A stretch of 32,175 bases of DNA from Chloroflexota bacterium (GTDB lineage: Bacteria > Chloroflexota > Anaerolineae > JACRMK01). A program made the translations under genes and the position numbers. Each line of letters opens with the position of its first letter. Positions within the stretch are counted from its first letter, which is position 1. Shown piece by piece: positions 3,082 to 21,698 of the stretch. The notes under the pieces are model-generated. The model made no database searches and was not told where the DNA came from. It saw nothing but the letters and a program-made list of their open reading frames with translations. The DNA lies in NCBI GenBank assembly GCA_016200765.1, contig JACQEC010000097.1, positions 1-32,175 of the forward strand, written 5' to 3'.

Positions 3082-5103
3082 TTATGCCATCCCCAGCGCC
3101 TTCAGCGCCGCCCCCAGCGGCTCCGAATAGAAGATCGGGTCCACTTTTTCCAGCAGGTCTCCCGGCACGTCCAGGAACTGCCGCTTGTTGCTCACGGGGA
3201 TGAGCACCTTTTTCGCTCCGTTATCAACCATCACTTGCAGCGGCTCGATTAGAGAGCGCAGTGGCACAATATTGCCCTGGATCGTCATGTCGCCAAGTAC
3301 GACCAGTCCGGCCAGCGTCGTCCGGTCGCGCAGTAGCGAATAGAGCGCCACGAAGAAGGCGACGCTCGCCTGCGAACCTTCTTTGGCCTGTGCGAGATCG
3401 ACGATCTGGACGTGAAAGTCTGCGCTGTCGAGCTGCCGCTCGATACCCAGCATCGCTTTATTCGCGCGTACGTAATCAAACGCCGTCATGAGCGAATCGC
3501 GCATTAACCGGTCTGGGCTGCCGCTGATGCGCAGCTTGCCGGAGCCCATCATCATGGTGACTTCGATCCGGTGCAGCGCCACCACCTGCTCATTCGTCAA
3601 TGCCGCGCCATACACGCTCCCTGCCGGCAGCGGGTCCGACGCAATCAGATCGGCGCGTCCCTGTTCCGGCACGCCAACATAGCGTTCCTGCATCGTCTCG
3701 TTGTCAATGTACGAAAAAGACGTCTGGTAATACTCGAATGCCCCCATTTTCTTGAGCTGCTCTTTGACGCGCCGCCGCCCTTCCAGCGCAATTTCCACAT
3801 ACTCGCGCAACTCTTCTTTTGGAGGATTTCCTGATGGGTGCAATAGCTTAATCAGTCCAGAGACTGTCCGGCGGACGGCCTTCGCATCCCGCGTATTCAG
3901 ATCAGTACCTAGCGCGAAGTATTGATCGAGTTGGTTAGCGTAGTTGTGACGACGCAGCTCTCGGAATGCTTCAGCCAAATAGTCCACCACGAAGCCATAG
4001 TGCTCTGTCAAGAACTCGTTGCGCATCTTGGGTATTTCCCAGCCGGGGATATAAAAATGTAGGCGGTCAATCAGCGCCATATCTTGCATGTCTTCTGGCA
4101 GAGGTTGAAACAAGTGACTGGTACGCACCAACATATCCACCGGCTGATTGATGTTGCCAGCAAAGACTACCGAGGCTTCAGCGACCAACTCCTCGCGCCC
4201 ACGACTGAAGCTGCCGCTCTCCATGTAATCCTTCAATATCTGGATGGCCGTCTTGTCGTCGAATTTGATGCCGGCCACCTCGTCAAACGCGACCACATCC
4301 CAGCGCCCGACGAGGCCGACTTGGCGCGTGCTCATGTTGTAGAACAGGTTGGCAACGGTCGTCTTGCCGCCGGATATCAGGATGGCATACGGCGAGAGGT
4401 CGCGGTAGACGTACGACTTCCCGGTGCCGCGCGGCCCGAGCTCAATCAGGTTGTAGTTACGTTGGGTCATCGGGATCAAGCGCACCAGCATCAGCAATTT
4501 GATGCGCCGGCTGAACTGTGATGGCTCTAGCCCGATGCTACGGATGAGCAGATCAATCCATTCATCGGTCGTGAAAGATGTCCGGCGCGCACAATAGTCG
4601 TCCAGACTAAACGTCGCTAGCTGAATCGGTTTGAGCGCGGTGATATAGAAGGGGCGCGCCTTGTCGTTCTCGTCGCCCTCGCCGCGGAACTCGATTTCCA
4701 CCTGGGACCAGACACCACCCTCCAGCAGCCGCTCGTATTGGCGCACGAACTGATCGGGGATGTGAACAAAGCGGTGGCTGAAATTGACCAACTCGGCCCA
4801 ATACTTGGTGCCATCGAGGCGCACCAGCACCTTGTCGATGAACGTCTGCTTACCCCGCTCCTTCGTGCGCGACTGGCCCTTCATCGCCTCGTCAGGCCGG
4901 ATGATGCTGGAGGCCAATGTGCTGTTGACAAGCCGCAGCCCAGCCTCGATCGCGATGGGATCATCTGTCGCGCAATACTTGCCCAGCAGATACTCGAGCA
5001 CATAGCCCGGCACGTTGGCGCCGACCTTGACCTCGCGCACGAGGTCTTTGCGCACCACCCGCCCTGCAAAGATGTCAACGACTTTGCGATCCAACTCTGG
5101 CAT
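3082..5103 (-). CDS. brxL: BREX Lon-like AAA+ protein BrxL
   Basis: BrxL is the type 1 BREX effector-like protein, an AAA+ ATPase fused to a Lon-like C-terminal domain that forms ring assemblies on DNA. The 673-aa product has Walker A GPRGTGKS (about 223-230), Walker B VVAFDEVAG (about 270-278), and a Lon-type domain from about 560. In that domain NGAKKVLIP (about 629) carries the usual lysine region. The Lon serine position (GPSAG in Lon) aligns by eye with GSQAS here, so a serine protease dyad is doubtful. Start ATG 5103 is supported by GGAG in TAGGAGTTCTCATG, which overlaps the pglZ stop region; the gap to pglZ is 8 nt. Length matches the family. It is the last gene of the tight BREX transcription unit. 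Confidence 0.93.
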   Translation of the reverse strand: MPELDRKVVDIFAGRVVRKDLVREVKVGANVPGYVLEYLLGKYCATDDPIAIEAGLRLVNSTLASSIIRPDEAMKGQSRTKERGKQTFIDKVLVRLDGTKYWAELVNFSHRFVHIPDQFVRQYERLLEGGVWSQVEIEFRGEGDENDKARPFYITALKPIQLATFSLDDYCARRTSFTTDEWIDLLIRSIGLEPSQFSRRIKLLMLVRLIPMTQRNYNLIELGPRGTGKSYVYRDLSPYAILISGGKTTVANLFYNMSTRQVGLVGRWDVVAFDEVAGIKFDDKTAIQILKDYMESGSFSRGREELVAEASVVFAGNINQPVDMLVRTSHLFQPLPEDMQDMALIDRLHFYIPGWEIPKMRNEFLTEHYGFVVDYLAEAFRELRRHNYANQLDQYFALGTDLNTRDAKAVRRTVSGLIKLLHPSGNPPKEELREYVEIALEGRRRVKEQLKKMGAFEYYQTSFSYIDNETMQERYVGVPEQGRADLIASDPLPAGSVYGAALTNEQVVALHRIEVTMMMGSGKLRISGSPDRLMRDSLMTAFDYVRANKAMLGIERQLDSADFHVQIVDLAQAKEGSQASVAFFVALYSLLRDRTTLAGLVVLGDMTIQGNIVPLRSLIEPLQVMVDNGAKKVLIPVSNKRQFLDVPGDLLEKVDPIFYSEPLGAALKALGMA

Positions 5104-5111
5104 GAGAACTC

Positions 5112-7706
5112 CTACAAGGCAATTTCAATCGGCAGGTCGGCCCTACTGGCCAATTTTGTGCCTGTGTCCGAGTCGAGCAGGTAGAGTGCAACTTGGGCTA
5201 CTTGGGGAACCTCTGTCACCTGCAAAGTAACCGAATTGGGCATGATCCGCTGCGGGTCGGCGGGATCCGTGGCCAGGGCCACATCGCCGGTCGCTGCCTG
5301 GAAGCCGTATGCCGCCGCCACTGGCACCGAAATGACCTGGTCGCCGGCGCGCAACTCCAGGCGCACGCGCGGCGCGGACGCGAGCATTACCTGCGCTTCT
5401 GCCTGGATCGTGACCGAGAAAAAGCGCGTTGTAATTTTGGCCGCGCCGGGCACGAGTGTCCAGCTGAAGGCAGGCGCACCCGTCACGGGCGCCAGCTCGC
5501 CCGCCGCGACCGTCAGCACCGGGATGACGATTTCCTGCAGCGACAGCCCGCCGTGCGAATAGACCATCGAGCCGCCCTGCACCTTGAACCAGGCGAGACC
5601 AAACGGTGTGACCAGCTCGAGATCGCCGCTCAAGCCAAACGCGGCGACCGGCGTTCGCAGGCATCCGGGTATGGCCGAGCCACCGTTGCCCACCCACACG
5701 CGTCGATGCAGGTCGGCCGTATCGCCGCCAGGCGCGTCAATGGTCTCCGCCTCGATCAGCTTTGGCCCGAACAGGTAGCCGTGGTCAGCCGTGATGATAG
5801 CCTTTCGCACACCAACGCCAAAGAGCGAGCGCAGCCCGCGCCGCAACTGGTTGAACACATCGTCTTGCATCTGGCGCGCCAGGTTCGGGTTGTTCTCCCA
5901 GAGGCCGTCGATCTCGTCGCTGGCCGTGACGACGATCAGTCGGGCGCCAGCCAGCTTGCTCCGCAGTTGCCTGCTATTGAGTGGCGCCAGCTGGCTTAAC
6001 TCAACGACGGCCACCGTCTCCCCGACCTGCTTCTGCAGATGCTTCAGCCGCTCCTGGCTATTCTTGACGATCGTGCCGCCAATCTCGATGCCCAATTTGC
6101 CACCGCCGAGCGCAACGAGTCCGAGCCCGCGTTCGGCGCCCGGCATCAGCGCCGCCATGCCGACCGGGGTAATCGTTGGCGGGGTGGCAAGCGCCGGCGA
6201 CAGGTCAGCTTTGAAATCCACCGCCAGCAGCTCTGCGAACTCGCGCGCCATCTCGAAGCGCAGGGCATCGACCAGGATGTAGGCCATCTTGTCCTCGGCC
6301 AGCGCGGTCGCAACGAACGAACGGAAGATGTCTGTCTGGTGCGTCCCGCCGGGCAGGTCGAAGTGGACGGCCTCGTAACCGTGAATGAAGCGGTTGGCCA
6401 GCTCATCGATCACCTCGCGATAACGCTGCTGCGCCCGGGTCACGAGTTGCACCAGCCTATCGTGGATGCCGTCTTCCGGGTCAAAGCGATGGTAGTCCCG
6501 CTCCAGATGGCGATAGGCGCGATCCAACTCGCACCACGGGGCGTCTCCGCTGGTATAACGCACGTACAGTGCGTCAGCCGATAGCGTCTGCGCTTTCAGC
6601 TCGCGCGCGATCCGGTTCGCCGTTTCCAGCACAAGCCCGGCTTGAGCGATGACTTGCCAGCGCAGCTTGCTTTCAGGTTTCTGCGTGCTCCAGAAACCAT
6701 CCGCGCGCCCGCGTGCCAATTCCATCAGCAGGCCATTTCCCTTACTGCCCACTTCCGCTTCAACCAGCGCTTGCAGCGCCGTCTCTGTGCGGTAGAACGT
6801 CTCGCTCTCCTTGAGCACGTGCGGCTCCCAGGCCAAGTCGCCCAGGCCCAGCTCGGCTTCCACCCGTTGGGCCGCCTGCGCGTAACTTGCGCCCAGATCG
6901 CGGCGCTGCCGCCAGGCACGCACGACTTGAACTGCCGTCTCGCGCGCCGCCTTGCCATGGGCGTGCGCGACCGTGCTTAGCCGCTCGGGCGCAGGACCGT
7001 TCAGCAATGCGAGGAACTCTGTCGTCAGCAGGTAGCGCGCCAGCAACGTCCGGATGGCGGAGAGGACGGACTGGATCGGAATCGCAATTTCGAATGCGTT
7101 CGCGAACAGCTCCCTCAACGGCTTGATCGCGCTGCGCCCTCGGATCGTCTCGTCCAACTCCGGCTCGCTCAAGAATCGGAGCGAGATCTCCTGGACGTTG
7201 CCGGAGTTGAAGATAATGGCCAGCACACCGGCATCGCCCGCGTTCTGCTCGGCGCGTGTATCCAGGTCCGCCAGGCTCAAACTGCCGGCCTCGACCTCTG
7301 CGACAATCTTGGCGACGACCGCGGCAGGCAGCAGCGGTTCCAATGCCACGCGCGCTACAGCCGCCAGCCGCGTATTGCACTCCGGCGGCTGCTGGCCGGG
7401 CTGCATCACGACGCCGACCAAGGCGAACTCAACCAGCGCGTGGTGCGTGTCAGCCTGCGCTAGCGGCACGTAGATCACCATGCGGGGCGACTCTCCGGAT
7501 TGCGCGTTCCAGAGGGTCTCCATATCGCGCCGGAGCGCCACGAACCCGCGCTCTTTCCGGTAGACGAAGAGCGGCGCACCGCTCAACGATGCCATGCTTG
7601 AGACCGCAGCGAGGTAGGCTCCTTCCGGGTCGAACCAGACGACGGTGCGATGGGCTTCGACCTGGGTGCGGATCAGTTCAAAGAGTTTGTCGGTGACCAA
7701 CCCCAT
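5112..7706 (-). CDS. pglZ: BREX phosphatase-domain protein PglZ
   Basis: PglZ is the alkaline-phosphatase-superfamily core protein of BREX, required for both defence and host methylation. The 864-aa product has the PglZ domain with YILVDALRFEMAREF (metal-binding Asp about residue 480), TITPVGMAALMPG (about 511-523, nucleophile Thr region), TASDEIDGLW (about 594-603) and ITADHGYLFG (Asp-His about 641-642). A C-terminal beta-rich region begins near 740. The ORF track starts at 7766, but I choose ATG 7706 (MGLVTDKLFELI). It lies 8 nt after the stop of the preceding gene and has AGGGG upstream; the longer form would run far into that gene. This is the type-A-like PglZ expected with BrxL. Confidence 0.93.
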   Translation of the reverse strand: MGLVTDKLFELIRTQVEAHRTVVWFDPEGAYLAAVSSMASLSGAPLFVYRKERGFVALRRDMETLWNAQSGESPRMVIYVPLAQADTHHALVEFALVGVVMQPGQQPPECNTRLAAVARVALEPLLPAAVVAKIVAEVEAGSLSLADLDTRAEQNAGDAGVLAIIFNSGNVQEISLRFLSEPELDETIRGRSAIKPLRELFANAFEIAIPIQSVLSAIRTLLARYLLTTEFLALLNGPAPERLSTVAHAHGKAARETAVQVVRAWRQRRDLGASYAQAAQRVEAELGLGDLAWEPHVLKESETFYRTETALQALVEAEVGSKGNGLLMELARGRADGFWSTQKPESKLRWQVIAQAGLVLETANRIARELKAQTLSADALYVRYTSGDAPWCELDRAYRHLERDYHRFDPEDGIHDRLVQLVTRAQQRYREVIDELANRFIHGYEAVHFDLPGGTHQTDIFRSFVATALAEDKMAYILVDALRFEMAREFAELLAVDFKADLSPALATPPTITPVGMAALMPGAERGLGLVALGGGKLGIEIGGTIVKNSQERLKHLQKQVGETVAVVELSQLAPLNSRQLRSKLAGARLIVVTASDEIDGLWENNPNLARQMQDDVFNQLRRGLRSLFGVGVRKAIITADHGYLFGPKLIEAETIDAPGGDTADLHRRVWVGNGGSAIPGCLRTPVAAFGLSGDLELVTPFGLAWFKVQGGSMVYSHGGLSLQEIVIPVLTVAAGELAPVTGAPAFSWTLVPGAAKITTRFFSVTIQAEAQVMLASAPRVRLELRAGDQVISVPVAAAYGFQAATGDVALATDPADPQRIMPNSVTLQVTEVPQVAQVALYLLDSDTGTKLASRADLPIEIAL

Positions 7707-7714
7707 AGGCGCCC

Positions 7715-9757
7715 CTATCCTTTGACCAGCCCTTTGGCGCGCAGTTGCTGGCTGATTGAGCTCCACGCATACTTGCCATCCAGCAGGTCGGCCCAGGCCT
7801 TCTGCGCTTCCTTCCAGGGGACCAGCTCATACAACGGCGCAATGTTTAGCAGTACGCCATCGTTCAGGTCCGGGTGGAGGTCCAGCCGCGCAATGCGGTC
7901 AATTGTTTTCTGGAATGTCTTGATTTCATCAACCAGATCAGCCTGCGCGGCCAGCGCGCGCTCCTGTGCCCTGCGCGGCGCGCCTTTCAGGTCTGCTGCC
8001 ACAGACTGCAGGTCGGAAAGCCGCTGGGCTTCAAGATTGAGCTTGGCATCCACATAATCGCGGCCCACGCGGTAGAGTGTGTCTGGGCCCAAGCGATGAT
8101 AGTAGAGCCAGATGCCATAGTTGCGGTTGCGGGATTGCAGCAGCCAGTAGATCGGCGCTTTGCGCCGGCTCTTTGAGTAGCGCTTGATGTGGAAGTCGAA
8201 GAAGTGACGGGGCTGGCGGAAGTATTCGCGCAGGGAGCCGACGCCCAGAATCTCGCAGGCTTCCTGTTCGATTGCGTCCGCCCGCTCGCGCCACAAAAGG
8301 CCGAGGACGGCCCGCACTTGCTTGACGATGTCGTCGGGGTGACGCTCATCGTCGGGCAGGATGCCGTCCCAAGCTATTTTGAGCGGATAGGCCGCATCCG
8401 GAATCGTGGCGGGCGAGTCGTCGAGCGCGGCCGCATCCGGCAGGGTGATCACATTCGGGCGCGCTTGCAACCACGCCTCACTGACGATCGTTCCCGGCTG
8501 GGCTGGCAAGCCATCTGGCCCGACGAGCATGCCTGGCGAGCAACAAGGGAGCGGCTCGAACGGACCCTGCAATTCCGGTAACAGCGACTGGTCAAGCGCG
8601 AAGCGCACGTCCCAGCGACCAAAGGCACAGCCGAGGCACCACATGAGGAAACCTTCTATCGTCGCCTGTGGGTCGTCTGAAAGTAATTCGTCGGGTTCCG
8701 TTTCGGTGTCCACCTCTTGCGCATCTTCTTCGATGCCTGTGTTTTCGACCAACCCGTTGACGTCGCTAGACTCGACGAAATCCTCTGGCGCTAGGCCATA
8801 CAATTGGGCGACTCGTTGATCTATTCGGTTCTGCACTTCCATCAGTTGTGATTGGGTTATTTCATATGCCTCTGCGCTTAGTCTGGCGCCGGATATTGGC
8901 GACTCCCGCCCCAATCGGGCGAGAACAGTCAGCGAAAACGCGTGAGTTGTCTCGTCACTTTTATCCAAGCTGCGAGTCAATTCGTAAGCGCGAAACGACT
9001 GGGTTGACAAGTCTGTAGGGTCGCCCAATGGGGGGATAGGAGTTCGTTGCAGTACACCAACTTCATATGAACCAAATGCCATCTGCAATGTAAGCAGGTG
9101 ATGCCAAATAGCTGAATTCATCAATCCAAGTAGCGCAAGCAGATCTTCGTTGTTGTCATCACTTGTAAAGACTGAAGGCCCTTTGTGACTAAAAATGGAT
9201 TTCCCAGGTAGAGCTCTTGCGCTGAATCCCTTTTGTGTCCTAAGCGGATATGTCAAGCCTTGTCGAAAATAGTACTCACTGTTTGCAATACGCCTAGACC
9301 AATGAGTAGTTCCAGGATCAAACGGATTCTGGGTCACCCATTCTTTCAATTCTTTGCCATTATTGTGCCAGTTGATAACCAACTGGATATCACTGTAGAA
9401 TTTCGAATACTCGCCTCCCTTACTGAGCGGGATCCACGAGCTTCCTAAATCGGTAGTTTTAGCTTCCCACCACAATCTGACGAATCGAAAATCATCACTC
9501 GTGGATAGACCGATTTTTACCACACGATCTTTACTTTCAAAGCGAGGATATCGCCCAAATATTGAAAGCACCCTTTTGCTAGCCCAATATGCGATTGGTG
9601 AGCCCGGGATTTGCCTGAAAGCGTCCGCTTCTATGGCAAACCTGTTAGCAACCGACCGATTAGCATTCAGCGCCTGCACCTGCGCGGCTAAGCGCTCGCC
9701 CTTGTCCTCAATCTCGGTTTTCAACAGGCGGAAGAATACGGTCGGTTCAGCGCTCAT
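7715..9757 (-). CDS. Second PglX, C-terminal half (target recognition and tail)
   Basis: The 680-aa product matches the C-terminal half of the fused PglX in this window: IPGSPIAYWAS against IPGSPWVYWVS, DDFRFVRLWWE against DNFRFLRFWWE, NDGVLLNIAPLYELVPW against DDGVIVRLAPLQTVIPLW. It holds the target-recognition region (about 1-330), an acidic linker (EEDAQEVDTETEPDELL) and a conserved helical C-terminal part. It has no methylase motifs of its own. The start is ATG 9757, directly after a TTG that the ORF track uses; a TAA stands immediately upstream in frame, so this is an independent start 40 bp after the stop of the methylase half. It should pair with that half as a specificity subunit. Compared with PglX1 it lacks the last 25 or so residues. 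The recognition segment is clearly more AT-rich than its flanks. Confidence 0.85.
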   Translation of the reverse strand: MSAEPTVFFRLLKTEIEDKGERLAAQVQALNANRSVANRFAIEADAFRQIPGSPIAYWASKRVLSIFGRYPRFESKDRVVKIGLSTSDDFRFVRLWWEAKTTDLGSSWIPLSKGGEYSKFYSDIQLVINWHNNGKELKEWVTQNPFDPGTTHWSRRIANSEYYFRQGLTYPLRTQKGFSARALPGKSIFSHKGPSVFTSDDNNEDLLALLGLMNSAIWHHLLTLQMAFGSYEVGVLQRTPIPPLGDPTDLSTQSFRAYELTRSLDKSDETTHAFSLTVLARLGRESPISGARLSAEAYEITQSQLMEVQNRIDQRVAQLYGLAPEDFVESSDVNGLVENTGIEEDAQEVDTETEPDELLSDDPQATIEGFLMWCLGCAFGRWDVRFALDQSLLPELQGPFEPLPCCSPGMLVGPDGLPAQPGTIVSEAWLQARPNVITLPDAAALDDSPATIPDAAYPLKIAWDGILPDDERHPDDIVKQVRAVLGLLWRERADAIEQEACEILGVGSLREYFRQPRHFFDFHIKRYSKSRRKAPIYWLLQSRNRNYGIWLYYHRLGPDTLYRVGRDYVDAKLNLEAQRLSDLQSVAADLKGAPRRAQERALAAQADLVDEIKTFQKTIDRIARLDLHPDLNDGVLLNIAPLYELVPWKEAQKAWADLLDGKYAWSSISQQLRAKGLVKG

Positions 9758-9797
9758 CAATTATCCATTTCAACAGGCGGTCAAGCACGTCGCACCA

Positions 9798-11777
9798 TTA
9801 CTCGTAAGCATCCTCGCGCTTCCACTGATAAGGCTCTCCCTTCGCGGCCGCCCCACCAACCTCGCGCTTTTCCAGCACGTAGGCGGCCGTCTCCACCATG
9901 GCCGTATCCAGCACGCCGTAGCCCAGGTCGGCGACGACGTGGATGTGCGTGCGCGGGATCAATAACTCCTCGCGCCAGGCGCGAAACGAGGTCAGGAAAA
10001 ATCCGGTGCGGCTGGTGATGGCGCCGAGGAGGCCGCGCTCGCGCAGCAACTCAAGCCCGCGCTCGACGAAAGCCGCATACAGATCGTTCTTGGTGCGCGG
10101 GTAGTTGGCGTCAATATACGCCTTCGACCCCTTGCTCGCCGCGCCAAAGGGTGGGTTCATCCACACGATGTCGAACGGCTCGAGCAGCAGCTCCAAGAAA
10201 GCGAAGCCGCCCTCCGCATCATTCGCAAACAGCCGCCGGCGCACCGGGTGATCCTGTTCCGCGTGCGCGGCCAGGCGCCGCAGCGCTTCGAGCGCGCCCG
10301 GTTTGAAGCGTTCCTGCCAGAACTCGTAGTCCGTGACGAACGCCAGATCCAAATCCAGCTGTTTCGCCGGCGGGACAGCCGGTTCAAAGAGCTGGGCTTG
10401 CTCGTACTGGGACAAGTTCTGCCAGGCGCGCTCGACCTGCTTCGCCTCCTGTTCAAACGTCTGCTCGATCTTCAGGAGCGAGCCGATCTCGTCGGCTTGA
10501 TGCATCGCCTGCCACATCGCGCGCACGAGGTCGCCGGTGGCGGGGTTGGCGAGCGAAGCGATAAACTCGTCCAACAAGTCGTCCTCGGCCGGCATCGGCT
10601 CGGCCACAACCAGGTTCACCCGCCGGATGATAGGCCGCTGGGCAACCTTCAGGCCCGCCTGCTGGTACGCGCGCTGAGCGCGCAACCAGAGCGCCAGCGC
10701 CCCAATCTGCGCGGCGCGGCGGTCAATCTCGATGCCATGCAGATTGTGCTCCAGAATCAGCGCGGGGATAGCGCGCCGATACTCGGCCAGCGTCGGAAAT
10801 TCTTGCTGGAGCGCCGGCCCCAGGTCGGCGTCCGCGTAGGCTTCCTCGTAGATAACCTCAAATAGGTCATAGCCGTAGAGCAGAAAATGACCACTGCCCG
10901 AGGCCGGGTCGAGTGCGCGCAGCGTGCGTGGATCGCGTTTCGGGCGCGGCGGAATCGGCTGGCCCGGCATACGCACCAGATAGCGGCAGCGCTCCGTCAA
11001 CGCGGTATCGCCTTGACGCATCTCCCACCAGAGTCGCCCGAGCGTGTTATCCACGAGGAATTCGACGACGTAGCGCGGTGTGTAGAACTGGTTGCGGAAG
11101 GCCAGCTCGTAGCTGTTGCGCGGCGCCGCGCTCTCTTTGCGCGCCTGGTCGCGTAGTTCCTTGGGCGTGAAGAACTGGTAAATCCAGCCGATGGTTTCGT
11201 CCTGGCGCCAGGTCTCGGCGAGCGCGTCTTGGTTCAACTGATCGAGCGCCTGCTGTAAGGTGGCCGTGCCCGGGAAAAGAAGCGACTGCGGCAACGAGCG
11301 ATCGAACAGCACGCCGAGCAACCGCGAGAGGTCATCGTACAACAGCTCAAGGTACATTCGGTAGCCGCCATCGGGTTGAGCGCGTATCAACTCGGGGGAG
11401 ACGAGCGCGAATTGGGTGAAGCCCTTGGAGTGCGCACCCTCGCCGATCGAGGGTTGAATCAACTGGCGCTCGGGCTGCTCCATCAGCTTGAGCGCCGCCA
11501 GCCGATTGAGCGCGGTGAACGCGCTCTCACGCACGAAACGCGCAATGGCTTCAGCCGGTTTCGCTCCCTGTGCCTGATAGTGCTTGAGGGCGTCCTCGAT
11601 GGAGCGGCGCTCGGCCCGACCGGCCGCATCGAGATGGGCCAGCCGGTCCAAAGGCTCGATCTGGCCGTCAAGGTGAACGCCATAGGTAGCCTCGAGCTGG
11701 CGCCCGAGATCTTCCTCCAGCCATCGGCGGCAGGCCGCCATAGCCAGACGCAAAGCGTTCCGCAAGGGACTATCCAT
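9798..11777 (-). CDS. Second PglX, N-terminal half (adenine methyltransferase domain)
   Basis: The 659-aa product is the methylase part of a PglX/type IIG-like N6-adenine methyltransferase. It has the helical N-terminal region, SAM-binding motif DPASGSGHF (about 290-298) and catalytic motif IV NPPF (about 541-544). It ends with ETAAYVLEKREVGG and KREDAYE, where the fused PglX1 runs on into its recognition domain. The ORF track starts at 11891; I choose ATG 11777 (MDSPLRNAL), because it gives a normal PglX start and overlaps the preceding HEPN-like gene by only 8 nt. Paralogy to PglX1 is plain in NRLAALKLMEQ against NRLVAFKMMEA and DETIGWIYQFF against DETIGWVYQFF. It probably needs the downstream half for DNA recognition and together they would give 1339 residues, close to PglX1's 1325. 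Confidence 0.87.
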   Translation of the reverse strand: MDSPLRNALRLAMAACRRWLEEDLGRQLEATYGVHLDGQIEPLDRLAHLDAAGRAERRSIEDALKHYQAQGAKPAEAIARFVRESAFTALNRLAALKLMEQPERQLIQPSIGEGAHSKGFTQFALVSPELIRAQPDGGYRMYLELLYDDLSRLLGVLFDRSLPQSLLFPGTATLQQALDQLNQDALAETWRQDETIGWIYQFFTPKELRDQARKESAAPRNSYELAFRNQFYTPRYVVEFLVDNTLGRLWWEMRQGDTALTERCRYLVRMPGQPIPPRPKRDPRTLRALDPASGSGHFLLYGYDLFEVIYEEAYADADLGPALQQEFPTLAEYRRAIPALILEHNLHGIEIDRRAAQIGALALWLRAQRAYQQAGLKVAQRPIIRRVNLVVAEPMPAEDDLLDEFIASLANPATGDLVRAMWQAMHQADEIGSLLKIEQTFEQEAKQVERAWQNLSQYEQAQLFEPAVPPAKQLDLDLAFVTDYEFWQERFKPGALEALRRLAAHAEQDHPVRRRLFANDAEGGFAFLELLLEPFDIVWMNPPFGAASKGSKAYIDANYPRTKNDLYAAFVERGLELLRERGLLGAITSRTGFFLTSFRAWREELLIPRTHIHVVADLGYGVLDTAMVETAAYVLEKREVGGAAAKGEPYQWKREDAYE

Positions 11778-12597
11778 GGGCCGCGTTCGCCTCGACTTGT
11801 GCGGCGTATGCTTTGATGCGTTCGACAACCAATTCGTCGAGCGCCAGGCAAATATGGCGTATCGTGTCAACCGACTGCTTGGCCGCCGCAAACGTAATCG
11901 CTTGCGGCTCGCCGTCCGGGTTGTCCTGCGGCCGGTCGGCTCGGTGCACGATGTCGTTGCGGCGTGTCACCGTCCGATCGAGCGTGTCCATGATCTCTCT
12001 TCTCTCGGCGTTCATCCCCAGGTGGGTAACGATTTGCTCCCACGGCTTCTCGAGCCCATGCAGCCGCCCCACTACCGCTACGCCTTTGCGCGTGCTTAGA
12101 TACTTGAAATTCGTCAGGCTCAAGATCCGGGTCGAAATATAGTCGGCGGCGCTGGCGTCTTTGATCAGCCGCAGCGTCTCATCCAGTGTGAAGGTCAGAT
12201 CCTTGAAATAGTCAACCACCGTGGGGTCGTTGGTCGGTATGAAATCGCGTCCGACCGCGCGGATGATGATCGGCAGGTTCGCCCGCAGCAGGGCCGGCAG
12301 GAACGTGTCCAGCGCCGTACACGCCATCACGATCGACTGCCGCAGCAAGTGCGCCAGCGTGGCGCGCCGCAGCGTCGAGCGCGCCATCTGCGCGCGCTCG
12401 CGCACCAGTCCCAGAAACAGCTCGTTGGTCACGACCATCAGGTCTTCTTCGCGCGTGGCGTGCACCAGCAGACGCAGGGCGCCGACCATCTCGCCTTCGG
12501 TCAAAATCTGATCGTCCGCGTCCAGCAAGCGGTAAATCTGCAAGAGCAGTTCGGCAGGCCGAATATTGTCTTCGAAGATTTGGCGCGGGTTAGACAT
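11770..12597 (-). CDS. HEPN-like protein inside the BREX operon
   Basis: The 275-aa, mostly helical product is not a standard BREX protein. Near its C-terminus it has TRRNDIVHRADR, which contains RNDIVH (about 213-218), an R-x4-H motif typical of catalytic HEPN ribonuclease domains; a polar residue after the Arg and a hydrophobic pair before the His are as expected. The first half resembles helical HEPN-associated regions, but I cannot name a family. It starts 4 nt after the brxC stop (ATG 12597) and its end overlaps the next gene by 8 nt, so it is translationally embedded in the operon. An RNA-cutting or abortive role is inference; a structural or regulatory partner for the split PglX is another option. 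Confidence 0.7.
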   Translation of the reverse strand: MSNPRQIFEDNIRPAELLLQIYRLLDADDQILTEGEMVGALRLLVHATREEDLMVVTNELFLGLVRERAQMARSTLRRATLAHLLRQSIVMACTALDTFLPALLRANLPIIIRAVGRDFIPTNDPTVVDYFKDLTFTLDETLRLIKDASAADYISTRILSLTNFKYLSTRKGVAVVGRLHGLEKPWEQIVTHLGMNAERREIMDTLDRTVTRRNDIVHRADRPQDNPDGEPQAITFAAAKQSVDTIRHICLALDELVVERIKAYAAQVEANAAHG

Positions 12598-12601
12598 AGG
12601 G

Positions 12602-15600
12602 CTACTCCAGGACGATCTTGGCGCCTGATTCCAACAACTTGAGCAGGTGATCGCGCAAGCGGTTTAGCAGCTCCTCAACCTCCTGCGGCGTGCTAAGCGC
12701 CTGGTATGAACTCACGACTTCGGCCATGCGCACGCGCTTGATTTTCTGCTCCGGCTGCAAGAGCTCTTGCATGGCGTGGATAACCCGTTCCCGTAGTGCT
12801 GGCATAGCGTCGAGATCCGACTCCATCTCGGGCAGGGTCGCGCGGCAGTGACCGCAGGCCAGCGCGCCAGCCGGTAGCTCTAGTTGATCACAGGCGCGTG
12901 CTTGCAAGGGCGCGAGCAGAGGGTCTTGCATCGTCTCTGGAACCGACGCCCAGTCGGGCAGGCCTTTGACGAACTCGATGGCCCGAGTGTACGCTTCGGC
13001 GCGTGTCTGGTGACCAGCGCGATAGAGCGCTGTGTACGCGGCTTCGACGTCGCCTGCGATCGCATCGATCTGCGCCGCTTCGCGGTAGAGCGCTAGCGAC
13101 TGCAAGGTCTCGTCAAGGCTCTTCATCTGCGCTTGCAGCGTAGCATCTGCGGCCCGCTCGGCCAACACGGGCCAAAGCTGGTTGAGCGCGGTGCGCGCGC
13201 GCTGCAAGCGCCGCAGCCCGGCCGGATCGGTCGCCTTGCGAATTTCCTGCGTCTGTTGGCGCAACTGCTTAAAGGTTTCGCCCTCGCCAGCCAGAATGTT
13301 GACGACGTCATCTGATGGGCTTTGGATAATCGTGTTGAGCTGCGAGCGATACTCGGCCAGAAGATCAGCGCCCGGCAGGTCATTCGCCGCCGCTTTGGCG
13401 ATAACCTCCAGCAGGGCTTCGCGCTCGGCGGAGGCCAGCTTCTGGAACCCCTGCGCGATCGCGTTCTCGTCAACATCCACCTCTTCGCCGGTCAGCGCTT
13501 CGTAGCGCTTGGCCGCGCCGACGAGCGTCTGCAGGTCGGGGGCCTTGCGCGGAGCAAAGGATGCCGCGCGAAAGGCATTGGCGCCGGTGAAGACCGGCCG
13601 AACTTGAGGGTCCAGATGATGACGGAAGCGCCGGCCCTGGTAGGTGACTTCGATCGTGCCTTTGCGCAGTAGGCTGGCGAGCACGATCCAGACCGTCTCT
13701 GGCTCCCAGCCGTACGGTATGGCGCGGAAGTGGTCTTCGAGCATGCGCCCGGTCACCTTGTTGCCGTACGAGTGCTCGCGTTGCACATAGGCGACGATCT
13801 CTTTTGCGATCGGCGCGTTATCGTTGATGATGAATTTGCCGCGGTCCTGAATGACCAAACCCAGGCCCTCGTCGCCAGCATAGAAGACTTTGGCGAGGCC
13901 GTTCAGGTTGGCCGCCTTGAGAATCTCTTCGGCCTCATCGCCCTTGATTGGACGCGCGCCCAATTCAAGTTGTGGGTAGAGCTGGGGCATGGCAAAATCA
14001 AACAGGGCATGGAAAATCTCCGACACCATCTTGCCAAGTTGAGCGCCCTCTCGGGGCGCACCGCCCAAAAAGCCGGTGCCCCGCGCGAGCTGATCTAACA
14101 GCAGGTTTTTCAGCCGCTCTTCGTGCCGGAGCACGGCCTGCTTCTCCGCCGCCAGACTGGCGGCCTCCTCGTCCGAGTGCAGCTTGCCCTGCGCGCGCAT
14201 CTGGTCGTATTTGGCCGCCATCTGTTTGGAGCGATAAACTTCTGCTAGCAGTTCGTCAATATCGTCTGTCAGGGCAAAGACCCAAAATAGGCGCGCCGGC
14301 GCTTGCCGGCTCTCATTCTGTGTCGCTTGGCACTCGGCGGCAAAGCCAGCGGGGCTATCGCTTAGCTTCAGCTCGAGCGGAATCTGCGCTTTGTTCGAGG
14401 TAATGTTGCGGCCTTGCCAAATGACGTTCAGAGCAAACGTGCGTCGCTTGTAGAGGTGACGGCTCAACGCAGGCTCTTGGAAGATACCCGCCAGCGCCCC
14501 TTCCATGAGATCGTTGCGCTCTCTTAACGAGGGGCTAAGGCTATTGCGCTCGGTCGTCCAGGTCTTCTCCTGCGCCGTCAGCAGTTTCCAGCCGTCCTCC
14601 GTCTGCCGGATGAACTGCCGCTTTTCGAGTTGTTGGATGGCTTGCTCAACCTCGGCCAGGGGTGATTTGGCATCCACGGCGTCGTAGAGCAGGACCGCAA
14701 TGTTGCGCTCGCTGCGCGGCAGGCCGCGCGTGTACTCCATCAGGCTGATGGCTTTGGCCGTGCGCACGACCCACGGTTCGCCCGAGAATATCTCCTGGAT
14801 CTCGTTCAGGTCGCGCTGGCGCTCGGAGGGTAGATTGGTATAGAGCAGGTCGTAAATGCGATCGAGGGTGACGAGCGTCCCGATGGGCGCTTCGGCAAGC
14901 CTGGTTTGTTTACTGACCAGCATTTCGTAGGCCTGCTTGATGATGGTGCGACTGCTGCCGCCGAAATGGCGGGGCGCGCCCGGCTGGAGGCGCAAGCCCG
15001 AGACAATATCAATCGAGAGTTCGATGAAGTGCGGCAGATAGGGATAGAACTGGACGAATTCGTCCGCGTTGAGATCGAAGCGAACCTTGTCCGAGCGTTC
15101 GGCCTGGATGTGGGTGCGGAGCTGGGCCCCCGACGTTCGGTAGAGTTCACGCAGCAGCGCTTCGGCCTCGGGCTTCTTGGGGAGCACGCGCTTGGTCGCG
15201 ACCTCACGAATATCACTGGGCACCATGTCAATATGGTGACGGAAACGGTCTTGCAGTCGCGCGAGCTCTACGCGCTTATCGCGGATGGCGGCGACGACCT
15301 CGTCGAGTTTTTCCTGGGACGTGACGACAATCCAGACCGGCGCCACCGCCCGGCGCGCTTCGACGCGGTTCTTGCCCTCCTTGCCGAACTGCTCGACGAT
15401 GGCGCGCAGATTTTCGATTTTTTCGGCGCTGCGCGCGACATATTGGCCGACCTCGTCAATCACGAACATCATGGTGCGGCCGGGATAGCGGCGCGCCGCC
15501 AGCTCAAACGTCCGCTGTACCAGATAGCGGACGTTGATATCGGCGGGGTTGGTAATCGTCTGCGCCCACGACTCGGGCCGCGGGTACGTCTTGGGGTCAA

Positions 15601-16333
15601 TCTCATGCAAGGTGGCGCTGGCGCGCTGGATCTTCTGCGCGCCTTTGCGGACGCGCTGCCAGGTGCGATACGCATCGGGCGGCACTTCCTTCAGCGTGAC
15701 AGGCACCCCGGCGTCGCTTTCGCCGTCGCCCGAGACCTGGCCGCCGAAGAGCCTGGCGCACGCCTGCACGAAGGCGCCCAGCCGTCCCTCGGATTCCAAC
15801 TCGATCTCGAGCGCAGCTACGTCGTAGTCCTGTGCGTAGTCCAACTCGCGCAGGAGCACGCTGTACATGATCTCGGCCAGCGATTCGTTGGCGCGGCGCA
15901 CGGCCCGGTCAACCTGCACGTCGAACATGATGACCTGCGCGGGAATGAGTTTGTTGATGAAATCCAGATGGTTGGCGATGCCCTCGACCAGCGGGTCATG
16001 CGGCGACTGCCGGCGAAGTTGCTCGATGAACAGCGCGGCCGCCGGTTTGGCGCGCAGTGTCGGGTTGGCGACGATATATCCGAAGTTCTTGGCAAACGAC
16101 GACTTGCCGGAGCCGAAGAAGCCCGAGACCCAGACGCCCACCGCCTCGGTCGGCTCCCCTTGGCTGTCGGCGATTGCCGTGAGGAGTTCGAGGTACTGCT
16201 CTTTGATATTCTTCGTCGCGACGTACTCGACGATTTCGCCGTAGACCGTCTGCTCGTCCCGCTGGTCGAGCTTGATGACTTCCTCGATCGGTTGCGAGAG
16301 GTCACGGGCTATCAGGTCGCCAATCGTTTTCAT
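12602..16333 (-). CDS. brxC: BREX P-loop ATPase BrxC
   Basis: BrxC is the large ATPase (DUF499/PglY-related) of BREX. The 1243-aa product has Walker A GFFGSGKS (about 71-78) in the family context VGVWVSGFFGSGKSSFAKNF, and Walker B MMFVIDEVGQYV near residue 290. The N-terminus MKTIGDLIARDLSQPIEEVI and the segment LDQRDEQTVYGEIVEYV match the usual BrxC start. The ORF track begins at 16516, inside pglX. ATG 16333 has GGAG six bases upstream and gives the family-typical start; ATG 16348 or 16351, overlapping the pglX stop as TGATGATG, are alternatives adding five or six residues. Length is normal. In type 1 operons brxC usually precedes pglX; here it follows it. Confidence 0.93.
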   Translation of the reverse strand: MKTIGDLIARDLSQPIEEVIKLDQRDEQTVYGEIVEYVATKNIKEQYLELLTAIADSQGEPTEAVGVWVSGFFGSGKSSFAKNFGYIVANPTLRAKPAAALFIEQLRRQSPHDPLVEGIANHLDFINKLIPAQVIMFDVQVDRAVRRANESLAEIMYSVLLRELDYAQDYDVAALEIELESEGRLGAFVQACARLFGGQVSGDGESDAGVPVTLKEVPPDAYRTWQRVRKGAQKIQRASATLHEIDPKTYPRPESWAQTITNPADINVRYLVQRTFELAARRYPGRTMMFVIDEVGQYVARSAEKIENLRAIVEQFGKEGKNRVEARRAVAPVWIVVTSQEKLDEVVAAIRDKRVELARLQDRFRHHIDMVPSDIREVATKRVLPKKPEAEALLRELYRTSGAQLRTHIQAERSDKVRFDLNADEFVQFYPYLPHFIELSIDIVSGLRLQPGAPRHFGGSSRTIIKQAYEMLVSKQTRLAEAPIGTLVTLDRIYDLLYTNLPSERQRDLNEIQEIFSGEPWVVRTAKAISLMEYTRGLPRSERNIAVLLYDAVDAKSPLAEVEQAIQQLEKRQFIRQTEDGWKLLTAQEKTWTTERNSLSPSLRERNDLMEGALAGIFQEPALSRHLYKRRTFALNVIWQGRNITSNKAQIPLELKLSDSPAGFAAECQATQNESRQAPARLFWVFALTDDIDELLAEVYRSKQMAAKYDQMRAQGKLHSDEEAASLAAEKQAVLRHEERLKNLLLDQLARGTGFLGGAPREGAQLGKMVSEIFHALFDFAMPQLYPQLELGARPIKGDEAEEILKAANLNGLAKVFYAGDEGLGLVIQDRGKFIINDNAPIAKEIVAYVQREHSYGNKVTGRMLEDHFRAIPYGWEPETVWIVLASLLRKGTIEVTYQGRRFRHHLDPQVRPVFTGANAFRAASFAPRKAPDLQTLVGAAKRYEALTGEEVDVDENAIAQGFQKLASAEREALLEVIAKAAANDLPGADLLAEYRSQLNTIIQSPSDDVVNILAGEGETFKQLRQQTQEIRKATDPAGLRRLQRARTALNQLWPVLAERAADATLQAQMKSLDETLQSLALYREAAQIDAIAGDVEAAYTALYRAGHQTRAEAYTRAIEFVKGLPDWASVPETMQDPLLAPLQARACDQLELPAGALACGHCRATLPEMESDLDAMPALRERVIHAMQELLQPEQKIKRVRMAEVVSSYQALSTPQEVEELLNRLRDHLLKLLESGAKIVLE

Positions 16334-16350
16334 AGGGGCTCCGGGCATCA

Positions 16351-19300
16351 TCAGTCTCCCTGATAAACGTCTTCGAGGCCGTGTGCGATGGCAAAGGATT
16401 TGTTCGTCCGACACGCCTTGCGCACCCGGTCGGGCCAATAGTGCATGGCGATGTGACTCCAGTCCAACTCGCCGTTCTTCAGCTTCTCCCAGCACTTCTT
16501 CGGCTCGCTCCCCCACAGCGGGATGACCGTCTGCAGGGGCGCCAGGCGCACGATCACGCCGTCGTCAATCCAGTTTGGCGCGGGCTCGTAGCCGCCGCTG
16601 GTGATGGCTTCGAGCGCCTTGGCGAACTCGGCCAGTTCGGCGGCCAACTCCCGTAAAGCGCCCATCTGCCGTTCGATGTCCCGGCGTTGTTTGCCCGCTG
16701 CGGCGCGCGCGACCTCGGCATCGGCCAGGGCCAATTCGACCGCGCGGCGCTTGGTGTCGAGGTACGGCTCGCGTTGCAGGGCGTAGAACGTGTCTTTGGT
16801 GATGCGTTCGTGGAAGAGGACGAAGCCATAGCGGCGACCGTTGCTCTGGATGGGCCAATAGACCGGGCGCTTGCGGTACCACGGGATATGCCAGCGCGTG
16901 AAGAAGTCTCGTGCAAGAAAATGGCGCAGGTCGCCGTTTGCGCCCAGGCGGATGACTTCCTGTGCCGCATCCGCGCCGAGCATCAGATCGAGCGCCTTGC
17001 CCGCCAGCGTCGTCAGGTCGCGCGGGTGGTGCTCATCAAGCACGGTGATGCCATCCGGCACCGCCAGTTGCTGCAGGGCCTTTTCCACGTTTGCCGCGAA
17101 CAGGTGCCGGCCGTCCTGTGCGTCTACATAGGCGAACTGATCTTTCGACCCGACCAATTCATCGAACTCGCCCTCCGCAGGCATGGGCAGCGAGCCGATG
17201 GCAAAGTCTTCGCGGCGGTAGATGGCCGAGCCGAGATCGCCCGCCACCCCCGGCCGGAAGCGCCCGAGCACCACGCCGACGGCGTACGAGATCCAGCGCA
17301 CGGCAAGGTCTTCGCGGGTCAACGACTCCGCTATATCATCGTCATTGCCGCCGGCTTCATCCATATCTGCCAAAGTCTCGTCCGCGGTCGCGTTTGCGGC
17401 ACCATTTAATTCCGCTTCAATCGCTATGCGCTCTTGATTAGCAATCTTGTAAAGCTGATAAACATCCTCGTCGATCTGCGCCTCGATATCCTTGGATTGC
17501 AGTCGCATGGCCTGTACTCTCTCAAGACCGGTTTGCCAGCTTAGCGGGACAACGAAGTCATAAGTCAATTCCGATGTCGTAGACGTTACCTTTGCCAAGG
17601 AGGTTGCCAGGCCGACCAATCCACTCAATCGTCTGTCGGAGACGGCAGGTATGGGAACCCTAGCGATATCACCAACCTGAAAGTTTACGGTCGGGTTTAT
17701 CAACTTGAGAGCGTACGCAGCGAATGAGGAATTCATAACTCCCAACACCAACGCCAAGTCCCGTGGAAACAGAGTTGAACCCGCAACATCAAAAATGAAG
17801 CCACCCGGCGAAATGCGGGAAGTAGAAGTCCCGGACGTAAGGTAGGAATATGTCACACCTTCACGGAAGTAAAAGTCGACCGATTTGATGATTCGTGACC
17901 AACCAGAGTTACCGTAGAGAGGGGCGGCCCATGCCTTGAGTTCACGTCCGTCCCGCCGATAATTGATCACATAATCTTGGTTCCCAAACCATCTCTTAAA
18001 CGCTCCACCTTTCATATACGGGAACCAGCGCATGCCGCGGTTACTAGCCTCGCTGGTTGTCTTACATCCAAACGCAATCATCTTGCGGCCAACTTCCCAC
18101 CAAAAACGGAGAAACCTGAAATTGTCAGCGGTCGCCAATCCTTGGCGAGGCGGAGCAACGGTCGCCAGTCCCGGCAGCTCCTTGAAGAGCGCGCGAATGG
18201 AATCGCTCACCCAATACACCCATGGACTACCCGGAATGGCATCAAAGGCCGACTGCGCGACACGGTATATGAGGCGATGAGTTGCGCCTGCCTGCAGCGC
18301 CGCCACGGCCTGCTCGAACACAGTACGCTTGGCGTCCGAATCGGGCTCGTGCACGAGACGAAAGTAGGTGCCGATGCTGGCTTGGCGGCGCGACGTGTCA
18401 GGCTCGCGGCGCATGGCGAAGATCGTCGTGTTGACCTTCTCGCCGGATATCTCTGCAAACGCGCGCGGACCCACATGAGCCATAGACTCAATGGCGAACT
18501 CTTGCAACAGCCCCTTGCGCAAGCCTTCATACGACGAGATAAACATGAACGACTGTTGCGTGATCATCCCGACCCGCCCACGCTCGCCGGCAAACTCACC
18601 GCAGCGTTGGATGAACGCCGCATACAAGTCACCCTTTGCTTCGGGGTAGGCATCCGCCACGAAGTCCGCCAGCGTCTCGTTCATGTTCCGGCGGCTCATG
18701 TAGGGTGGATTGGCTACCACGCAGTCGTAGCGGCGCAGCATCAGGTTCAGCACACGCAACCCTTTCGCGGCCTCGCGCACAAAATAGCGCTCGTCGCTCC
18801 CCTGCACAGCGTGCGACCGCGCGAATGCGTCCAGCGCCTGCACAAGCTGTGCCGCCAGCAGGTCCCAGTACCCCGCCTGCGCCGCCTCGCGCTCAAATAG
18901 CGCCGCGGCTCTGCCAAACAGATCCAGCTGCCGCCCTTCCTGCTCGAAGCGCTTCTCCTCGTCGGCAATCAACGCGCCAATCTCCGATTCGAGCCGCAGT
19001 AGCGACCCCAGTTGCGCGCTATCCTCCAGCCGCGCCCATAGCGCCCGCAGCAGTCGTTCGTAGATCGGCCGGCTGAACTTCATCTCGCGAATGAACGCAT
19101 TGAGCCGTGTCCCGTTGAGCGTCAACACGTCTGCGCAAGCCAAGTTGTGATCGCTGATCTCGGCAGCCTTATTGAGGCTTTTCGCCTTCAGGTAGAGCGT
19201 AAGCGCCGATAGTTGAACCGCGCGCAGGTCAATGTCGATCCCGAACAGGTTGTGTTTGATGATTGCCGCGGGGATCTCCGCTTCAGAAAGAACCGAGGGT

Positions 19301-20328
19301 GCCGCCGGCCAGCCAATGTCGCCCGCATGCGCGAGCTCCTCGCGATACATCTCGGCGAACAGGTCGAACGCCACCAGTCCGAAGTGCATCGTCCCGCACG
19401 CGGGGTCCAACAGGGTGATTTCCTTTACAGCACGTAGCGGCTCACGGGGCATCTCACCGCCGGCTGGCACGAGGTACCGCAAGGCTGCGCCCAGGTGCGA
19501 GTCCGGGTGCATCTGCACCCACAGCCGTCCGAGCGTGTTCTCGACAATGAACCGCACGATCCAGCGTGGCGTAAACAATTGCGTCGCCGCCGGTATGTCC
19601 TCGCGTCGTATTTTCTTCTTCTGCCTGAAGAGCCGTTCGAAAACCTCTCGCTTTTCCTCTTCGCTAAAGAACTGGTACACCCACCCGATCGTCTCGTCCG
19701 CAGGCCACGCTGGAGCCAACCCGGCGGCATTTAGCAGTTCGAGCACGCCGCGCAGAGCAACCGGCCGCGGGAAGAGCCGCGAGGGCAAATCGTCGGGGTC
19801 GAACAGCACGTTCAGCTGTTGCGAAATCTGCCCGGCCTGCCAGAGCAGAAAGTGACGGTAGGCTGTGTCGGTCTGGCCGGCCTGCGCCAGCGCGTAGTCG
19901 GCGGCGTGCTCGGCGAGGTAGAACTTGAAGCCGTTGGAGTCGGCGCCGCGCCCGACTGCTTCGCGGACGAGATGGCGCGCCTCCATCATCTTGAAGGCGA
20001 CCAGCCGGTTCAAGTGCGTGAAAGCAATCTCCTTGACCAGCTTATCAACCGCCTCTCGCTTGTCAAGCCCGGCGATGACCTCGTCCGTCAGGAACTGCTT
20101 CAGGCGGTCGTAGGTCGCGCGTGTTTCCGGGTCCGCCAGCGCGGGCAGGTTGTTGGGCGGCTCGAGCGCGCCGTCCGGGTGCAGGCCGTACACGCCGACC
20201 AGCAGGTCGCGCGCCTCACACGCCAGCCGCTCGCGCGCGGCCAACGCAAAGTTGTGGATCGCGCCGCGCACCTCGTCGCCAAGGTATTGGTCCTGAAACA
20301 TGTGGGGGGCGATGGTCTGGTTCGTCAT
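16351..20328 (-). CDS. pglX: BREX adenine-specific DNA methyltransferase PglX
   Basis: PglX methylates an adenine in a non-palindromic site to mark host DNA. The 1325-aa product has the N-terminal helical region (1-250), SAM motif LLDPACGTMHFGL (about 307-319), catalytic motif NPPY (540-543), a recognition region (about 700-1000), an acidic linker (DEAGGNDDDIAES), and a C-terminal part with a coiled-coil-like stretch (GKQRRDIERQMGALREL) and ELDWSHIAMHYWPDRVRKAC. Length is in the normal PglX range. ATG 20328 lies 12 nt after the brxB stop, with only a weak ribosome binding site. The recognition region (about 17,400-18,150) is visibly more AT-rich than the rest. It is a paralogue of the split methylase further along the operon; unlike standard type 1 it precedes brxC. 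Confidence 0.94.
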   Translation of the reverse strand: MTNQTIAPHMFQDQYLGDEVRGAIHNFALAARERLACEARDLLVGVYGLHPDGALEPPNNLPALADPETRATYDRLKQFLTDEVIAGLDKREAVDKLVKEIAFTHLNRLVAFKMMEARHLVREAVGRGADSNGFKFYLAEHAADYALAQAGQTDTAYRHFLLWQAGQISQQLNVLFDPDDLPSRLFPRPVALRGVLELLNAAGLAPAWPADETIGWVYQFFSEEEKREVFERLFRQKKKIRREDIPAATQLFTPRWIVRFIVENTLGRLWVQMHPDSHLGAALRYLVPAGGEMPREPLRAVKEITLLDPACGTMHFGLVAFDLFAEMYREELAHAGDIGWPAAPSVLSEAEIPAAIIKHNLFGIDIDLRAVQLSALTLYLKAKSLNKAAEISDHNLACADVLTLNGTRLNAFIREMKFSRPIYERLLRALWARLEDSAQLGSLLRLESEIGALIADEEKRFEQEGRQLDLFGRAAALFEREAAQAGYWDLLAAQLVQALDAFARSHAVQGSDERYFVREAAKGLRVLNLMLRRYDCVVANPPYMSRRNMNETLADFVADAYPEAKGDLYAAFIQRCGEFAGERGRVGMITQQSFMFISSYEGLRKGLLQEFAIESMAHVGPRAFAEISGEKVNTTIFAMRREPDTSRRQASIGTYFRLVHEPDSDAKRTVFEQAVAALQAGATHRLIYRVAQSAFDAIPGSPWVYWVSDSIRALFKELPGLATVAPPRQGLATADNFRFLRFWWEVGRKMIAFGCKTTSEASNRGMRWFPYMKGGAFKRWFGNQDYVINYRRDGRELKAWAAPLYGNSGWSRIIKSVDFYFREGVTYSYLTSGTSTSRISPGGFIFDVAGSTLFPRDLALVLGVMNSSFAAYALKLINPTVNFQVGDIARVPIPAVSDRRLSGLVGLATSLAKVTSTTSELTYDFVVPLSWQTGLERVQAMRLQSKDIEAQIDEDVYQLYKIANQERIAIEAELNGAANATADETLADMDEAGGNDDDIAESLTREDLAVRWISYAVGVVLGRFRPGVAGDLGSAIYRREDFAIGSLPMPAEGEFDELVGSKDQFAYVDAQDGRHLFAANVEKALQQLAVPDGITVLDEHHPRDLTTLAGKALDLMLGADAAQEVIRLGANGDLRHFLARDFFTRWHIPWYRKRPVYWPIQSNGRRYGFVLFHERITKDTFYALQREPYLDTKRRAVELALADAEVARAAAGKQRRDIERQMGALRELAAELAEFAKALEAITSGGYEPAPNWIDDGVIVRLAPLQTVIPLWGSEPKKCWEKLKNGELDWSHIAMHYWPDRVRKACRTNKSFAIAHGLEDVYQGD

Positions 20329-20340
20329 CGGCTGGGCGGT

Positions 20341-20931
20341 TCAATCTACGTAGACTTTGGTGTGATAGCTGCCGCGCCCTTCGTTCTCGGCGATGCCCAT
20401 GAAGCGCAGGCTGGCGCCTTCGGTCGTGGCGGGCAGGAACAGCACACAGGGCACATGCGTGCGGCCTTTCATCTCGTCGAGCAGTTTCGAGACGCGGTAG
20501 ATATTCGGCGCCAGCGCGCCCGCGCGCCAGATAAACGCGAGGTCTTTATGCGGGTTCAGACTGCGCAACTGCTCCGCCAACAGCCCGGGCAGAGGGCGGA
20601 AATCGGGGTCCGACAGGTAGTCGTTGATCTGCTGTTGCGCCGCGTCGAAGCCTGCCTGCGCCTCCAGGCTGATGACGGCATCCAGCCCCTCGGATTCGTC
20701 GATCGCGCGCCACAACAGATCGGCCAGCGAGACGTAGACAATGCACCGGATGTGGTCGTTCTCCAGCCGCGTTTTGAGCAGGGCCACCTCGCCGCGCATC
20801 GCCCACTCTTCCGCCGGGGTGTAGCAGAAGGTGGCGAAGGGCAGGTCGTGGTACATGTAGTGCCCCAGCGGGTCGCGGCGCAAGTCGGCCTCAAGCCGCT
20901 TGATGCGTTCTTTTAACGAGGACATCGGCAT
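20341..20931 (-). CDS. brxB: BREX protein BrxB (DUF1788)
   Basis: BrxB is a small core protein of unknown biochemistry needed for defence. The 196-aa product begins MPMSSLKERIKRLEADLRRD and contains LPFATFCYTPAEEWAMR, both typical of the DUF1788 family, and it ends with RGSYHTKVYVD, a conserved C-terminal type. Length fits the family (about 190-200 aa). ATG 20931 overlaps the end of brxA by 41 nt; ATG 20925 is a possible shorter start. Overlap with brxA and a 9-12 nt gap to pglX place it in one transcript with them. Confidence 0.92.
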   Translation of the reverse strand: MPMSSLKERIKRLEADLRRDPLGHYMYHDLPFATFCYTPAEEWAMRGEVALLKTRLENDHIRCIVYVSLADLLWRAIDESEGLDAVISLEAQAGFDAAQQQINDYLSDPDFRPLPGLLAEQLRSLNPHKDLAFIWRAGALAPNIYRVSKLLDEMKGRTHVPCVLFLPATTEGASLRFMGIAENEGRGSYHTKVYVD

Positions 20932-21694: not shown

Positions 21695-21698
21695 CACA

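Follow-up and report, generated by a model that had tools for sequence, protein, structure and literature searches.

Does a pglX gene that is divided between two open reading frames (ORFs) still encode a working methyltransferase? This question was raised by the window, a 32,175-nt stretch of contig JACQEC010000097.1 from a Chloroflexota bacterium, whose minus strand carries a type 1 bacteriophage exclusion (BREX) operon in the order brxE-brxA-brxB-pglX1-brxC-HEPN-pglX2N-pglX2C-pglZ-brxL. The second pglX of this operon occupies two genes. The upstream one, pglX2-N (9798..11777, minus strand, ATG at 11777, TAA at 9800-9798), encodes 659 amino acids with an N-terminal helical region and an N6-adenine methyltransferase. 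The downstream one, pglX2-C (7715..9757, minus strand, ATG at 9757), encodes 680 amino acids with the target recognition domain (TRD), the helical spacer and the C-terminal domain of PglX. Comparison of the sequences indicates that pglX2 most likely represents PglX (BrxX), the methyltransferase of type 1 BREX, in a genuine two-gene form, whose halves would reassemble into a BrxX-like enzyme.

An earlier note on this DNA had stated that the two ORFs add up to the fused PglX1, and the sum of 1339 amino acids agreed well with the 1325 amino acids of PglX1. The pglX2-N product aligned to PglX1 residues 20-608 with 34% identity, and that of pglX2-C to residues 654-1296 with 29% identity. Against the BrxX/PglX structures in PDB, the match of pglX2-N ran up to BrxX residue 611, and the match of pglX2-C began at residue 638 of PDB 8c45 and residue 643 of PDB 9ewz. 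On the E. coli BrxX sequence this places the cut between residues 611 and about 640, just after the methylase domain, as the note had described. The features of PglX/BrxX were divided between the two products: the N half contained the N-terminal domain and an N6-methyltransferase with motifs I and IV (LDPASGSGHF and NPPF, both intact; Eco57I match in Pfam), and the C half contained a TRD and a C-terminal domain homologous to BrxX. Furthermore, pglX2-N matched the PADLOC profile PDLC02526 over positions 1-637 of 640, and pglX2-C matched PDLC02532 (682 positions) from position 2 and PDLC02527 from position 666. That PADLOC includes PglX profiles of half length (640 and 682 positions) suggests an earlier clustering of halves like these. 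In the cryo-electron microscopy structure of BrxX, two rigid jaws, one made of the N-terminal and methyltransferase domains and the other of the TRD and C-terminal domain, are connected by a flexible hinge of residues 638-675 (PMC11842806). As judged from the alignments, the break in pglX2 falls at this structural joint, near the hinge, and each gene equals one jaw.

The two halves are separated by a spacer of 40 nt (9758..9797, minus strand), and their frames lie +1 apart. The N frame was closed by its TAA, and the C frame by a TGA and a TAA just upstream of the pglX2-C ATG, so that the stops reported earlier on both sides of the junction were found again. Stops were present in all three reading frames across the junction and around the spacer; therefore, no single insertion or deletion can join the halves, and the earlier statement that one sequencing error could not fuse them holds. 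A possible weak GGA Shine-Dalgarno sequence precedes the pglX2-C ATG.

Genomes of the window's phylum, plasmids and IMG/VR contigs were searched for split loci. The homologue search that the earlier note had called for revealed that the same split recurs and that the homologues are not all fused: 22 split pglX loci were found including the window, that is, at least 21 other sequenced loci. Because the same cut recurs in many other genomes, a chance origin is excluded. In 19 of the 22 loci the cut immediately followed the strand (V)E(T/A)AAYVLEK, a position termed site A. These were, besides the window, G032 (L035), G148 (L036), G277 (L037), G308 (L038, N side only), G678 (L077, N side, with the C half on another contig), G454 (L078), G696 (L080), the pglX2 of G519 (L081), G661 (L082) and G638 (L084) among the genomes, the plasmid of Thioflavicoccus mobilis (L046), and the viral-collection contigs (IMG/VR) L107, L109, L110, L111, L114, L119 and L120. 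The remaining three were cut at site B, about 40 amino acids beyond site A, after the FxRL strand and the next helix: G485 (L089) and the PglX1-type genes of G519 (L087/L081, two contigs) and G541 (L086), the last of which, broken within repeat-like sequence, is the least secure of the splits. Past the (V)E(T/A)AAYVLEK strand, the N halves continued for 1-23 amino acids before their end; the C halves started 2-18 amino acids ahead of F-x-R-L. Since fused relatives hold merely a short linker at site A, the split removes nothing. The gene order brxC, N, C, pglZ, brxL, with or without a HEPN gene after brxC, was conserved among the split loci.

Class-level searches centred on G148 and G277 yielded no additional splits, and a scan of genome contigs yielded only a distant fused relative. 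Some candidates were rejected: the pglX genes of the phylum-search relatives G131, G047 and G294 were fused, and in G153 a pglX prefix was joined to unrelated sequence. Two other arrangements were observed as well. In L117 (5961-10423) the PglX break lies between the TRD and the C-terminal tail, not at the hinge, and in L040 (9835-11100) the first 240 amino acids of PglX continue into unrelated DprA-like sequence, through a deletion or a chimeric contig.

Both halves bear the marks of maintained genes. In the close split pair L109/L110, the N half had a ratio of nonsynonymous to synonymous substitution rates (dN/dS) of 0.062 and the C-terminal tail one of 0.068, and other pairs gave 0.09-0.27; a wrong reading frame for the G638 fragment invalidates the N-half value of G454/G638. 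Moreover, the catalytic motifs were invariant. The stop and start codons overlapped by 4 nt (ATGA) at the junctions of L037, L081, L107, L109, L110 and L111, the halves of L078 overlapped by 8 nt, and the Thioflavicoccus C half was preceded by a strong AGGAGG Shine-Dalgarno sequence.

On this basis a two-subunit enzyme can be proposed. The upper jaw (N-terminal domain and methyltransferase) would come from the upstream gene, and the lower jaw (TRD, spacer and C-terminal domain) from the downstream one. Each half would be translated on its own, whether in the ordinary way or by coupling, and the two would then associate non-covalently and act in the manner of HsdM plus HsdS. The complex may recognise and methylate one BREX site, which for PglX/BrxX enzymes is a 6-bp non-palindromic sequence modified to m6A, and may license restriction with BrxB, BrxC, PglZ and BrxL as fused BrxX does. 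Of this picture, the sequences themselves show complete coding ORFs, a conserved cut and operon context, purifying selection on both halves in close relatives, TRD exchange and co-inheritance. Some points weigh against the proposal: in the window, a 40-nt gap separates the pair and the N half has a tail of 23 amino acids, compared with tight overlaps in other pairs; the window belongs to a draft genome of 389 contigs; and AlphaFold models of the separate halves reached predicted local distance difference test (pLDDT) values of 53 and 63, too uncertain to judge an interface.

The proposed enzyme was compared with known systems. Fused PglX/BrxX (E. coli HS BrxX, PDB 9ewz; Salmonella PglX, PDB 8c45) has the same domain order and operon context, and both pglX2 halves matched it significantly, although it is a single polypeptide and not the product of two genes. 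Like HsdM and HsdS of EcoKI, split PglX carries methylase and specificity on separate genes. The hsdM and hsdS genes have tiny overlaps that suggest translational coupling, and EcoKI HsdM fused to HsdS keeps its function, an engineering step in the opposite direction (PMC3510504). Unlike HsdS, the C half of split PglX has one TRD per recognition subunit; it matched no Pfam family in the Pfam scan, and hence not Methylase_S. No hsdR was detected among the operon proteins scanned (PADLOC, Pfam), where the BREX partners pglZ and brxL stood instead. In type IIB systems such as BcgI and BsaXI, DNA is cleaved and the S subunit has two TRDs. Unlike these, split PglX had no detectable nuclease domain. 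It resembles them in being an IIG/IIL-like enzyme with specificity on a separate subunit (PMC9159934, PMC11997821), and BsaXI has been reconstituted from RM and S subunits (PMC9159934).

Trees of the N parts required 5-6 changes between the split and fused states, and the window fell in a supported group (96/93) with nine of ten members split. The split L109, L110 and L111 neighboured the fused L116, L115 and L112, and the N parts of L115 and L116 were 83-88% identical to those of L109/L110. Along the DNA of L109 and L116, an identity of 84-91% was followed by a replaced block of ~1.6 kb at ~40% and then by 84-89%; the block covered the methylase end, the junction, the TRD and the spacer. As the block takes in both the junction and the TRD, a change of TRD cassette can bring with it a change between split and fused, as inferred from L109/L116/L115 and from L107/L108, two groups of relatives. 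L109, L110, L115 and L116, with flanks 84-91% identical and methylase-end/TRD cassettes fully replaced, form a natural series for BREX specificity switching.

The earlier note had also suggested that a detached recognition subunit would resemble the M and S subunits of type I enzymes and could allow exchange of specificity. The split might then be an adaptation in its own right, a free S-like subunit letting recognition halves be gained or shared as with hsdS. In agreement with this, the TRD segment of pglX2-C (9004..9649, minus strand; residues 38-252 of the 7715-9760 translation) had a GC content at third codon positions (GC3) of 0.42, compared with 0.73-0.82 around it (N half 0.79-0.82, tail 0.75), which by base composition is the mark of imported DNA. 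In addition, DNA identity between L109 and L110, both split, dropped from about 90% to about 40% over the TRD only. However, the GC3 dip was also present in fused pglX genes, and TRD replacement was found equally in fused PglX (Hymenobacter, G294, G047, and the G652_F1/F2 pair, with an N domain 93% and a TRD 28% identical) and between split L109 and fused L116. Exchange affected an internal cassette and not the C gene as a whole, and the C-tail followed N: N and C-tail distances were correlated with r=0.93 in the split and in the fused set (Mantel p 0.0005), and N and TRD distances with r=0.42 and 0.18, respectively. No clear surplus recognition halves occurred among 396 genomes, in which short-contig fragments (e.g., G678) leave some doubt. 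The likeness to M and S genes is accepted, but since fused PglX swaps TRDs, the C-tail tracks N and no clear surplus halves were seen, exchange is regarded as an unlikely reason for the split.

Other genes stood between the halves in 9 of the 22 split loci. They were an OLD/Gabija/AriA-like ATPase-TOPRIM gene with ATGA overlaps at both ends in G032 (L035), a PARIS-like pair of AriA-like and AriB-like genes in G696 (L080), the Helicase and DUF2290 pair of PADLOC in the Thioflavicoccus plasmid (L046), HicA-HicB in G638 (L084; HicA just under the Pfam cut-off), a Fic protein in L119 and L120 (profile match for L119, motif in both), a NACHT protein whose start lies within the last part of the N gene in G308 (L038), a 140-amino-acid ORF without assigned family in G148 (L036), and a Schlafen AlbA_2 gene in the PglX1-type locus of G519. 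The AriA-like ATPase of L080 (1645-3048) carries an inserted LuxR-type helix-turn-helix (GerE) domain. HEPN, OLD, PARIS and Schlafen genes like those of the split loci have already been described as auxiliary or backup effectors lodged in BREX operons (Rakesh and Krishnan 2026, PMC12839542), and neither a PglX split nor insertion between halves is mentioned in those portions of its main text that were covered. The type I EcoprrI operon, with its embedded prrC effector gene (PMC3874165), resembles such loci. Split PglX might be a true M plus S enzyme with a junction that also serves to house latent effectors, which the OLD, PARIS-like, Fic, HicAB, NACHT, Schlafen and Helicase-DUF2290 genes could encode. 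Because Ocr-type phage DNA mimics bind the TRD and C-terminal domain, disturbance of the complex could release or trigger an effector, much as PrrC of EcoprrI is released or triggered; by this analogy, such a role has a small chance of being correct. Cargo was also found between brxC and N (HEPN, five loci), between C and pglZ, and beside pglX in fused loci, so the junction is one of three cargo slots and not special on present numbers.

It is also conceivable, though quite improbable, that the halves do separate jobs: the N half would pair with a different specificity partner, for instance BrxC or the recognition part of PglX1, while the C half would be a DNA-binding sensor or phage-mimic decoy. 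The TRD and C-terminal domain of BrxX alone do form a surface for non-specific DNA binding and for the phage mimic Ocr (PMC11842806). However, the cognate pair stood in the operon wherever both sides were sequenced, N and C-tail co-evolved strongly, and the Thioflavicoccus BREX cluster lists no other pglX.

Very improbable, too, is a decaying or mis-assembled pglX, broken by a frameshift or stop mutation and without functional product. The draft state of the window assembly would allow it, and genuinely broken pglX genes are on record in Vibrio (NZ_CP034301), Rhodovulum (NZ_CP015042) and two Hymenobacter plasmid records (NZ_CP053905 and NZ_CP095057), which were rejected as splits and kept as controls. 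The breaks in these controls were scattered elsewhere, whereas in every split locus the cut lies in the connector, with no sign of relaxed selection. The low dN/dS (about 0.06-0.27), the whole genes between the halves in several loci, and the presence among the split loci of a genome in one contig (G148) and of a complete plasmid all speak against this reading. Split pglX is thus neither decay nor assembly error, and both halves are under selection where measurable. Programmed frameshifting or stop read-through to a fused protein, for which an overlap of the two frames by tens of bases in L037 and L109-L111 might speak, deserves next to no credence: it is impossible in the window, with the C frame closed upstream of the pglX2-C ATG, and in L035, L046, L119, L120 and L084, with their inserted genes.

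The rest of the operon, all on the minus strand, was typical of type 1 BREX. PADLOC and Pfam matches were obtained for pglZ (5112..7766), brxB (20341..20931) and brxA (20891..21697), and a PADLOC match for brxL (3082..5103); a brxE-family gene (21699..22232) scored 51.5 bits with NF033447 (cut-off 40). The coordinates of brxC (12602..16516) are those of the longest ORF, and its true start is probably further in. The HEPN-family protein between brxC and pglX2-N (11770..12597, 275 amino acids, Pfam RiboL-PSP-HEPN) is probably a backup RNase effector, and its R(x4)H motif RNDIVH was invariant across five loci with the same placement. The fused pglX1 (16351..20328) belongs to a different subfamily from pglX2 (7715-11777) and has a different TRD, and probably marks a second site; comparable loci with two PglX enzymes were G148, G454, G519, G541 and G661. 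The operon is adjoined by a McrB-like AAA protein (133-2253) whose N-terminal region matches PADLOC PDC-S02. A 227-amino-acid ORF (2293-2976) carries an ILGQDP motif recalling uracil-DNA glycosylases and had no match in Pfam, PADLOC or NCBIfam.

The split form has been overlooked by current annotation rules. The NCBIfam PglX model NF033452 has a 500-bit cut-off for the whole protein, and the two halves scored 398 and 328 bits, pglX2-C covering model positions 636-1208. As each half falls below this cut-off, the split form is annotated as 'DNA methyltransferase' and 'hypothetical protein', as in Thioflavicoccus mobilis 8321 (N half WP_015282552, C half WP_015282549), and surveys of methylomes or defence systems may count it as a methylase plus an unnamed protein. 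No published description of a split PglX was found in the one open-access library searched, which is not proof of absence. PglX, which marks the cell's own DNA and chooses the target site in one of the commonest anti-phage systems, is known from descriptions as one chain that includes the TRD. That a two-gene form recurs indicates that its jaws are separable modules and ties BREX closer to type I and IIB enzymes. The junction is among the places where other defence genes lodge inside BREX, and the split form may offer an experimental handle, with jaws that could be purified, mixed and swapped individually.

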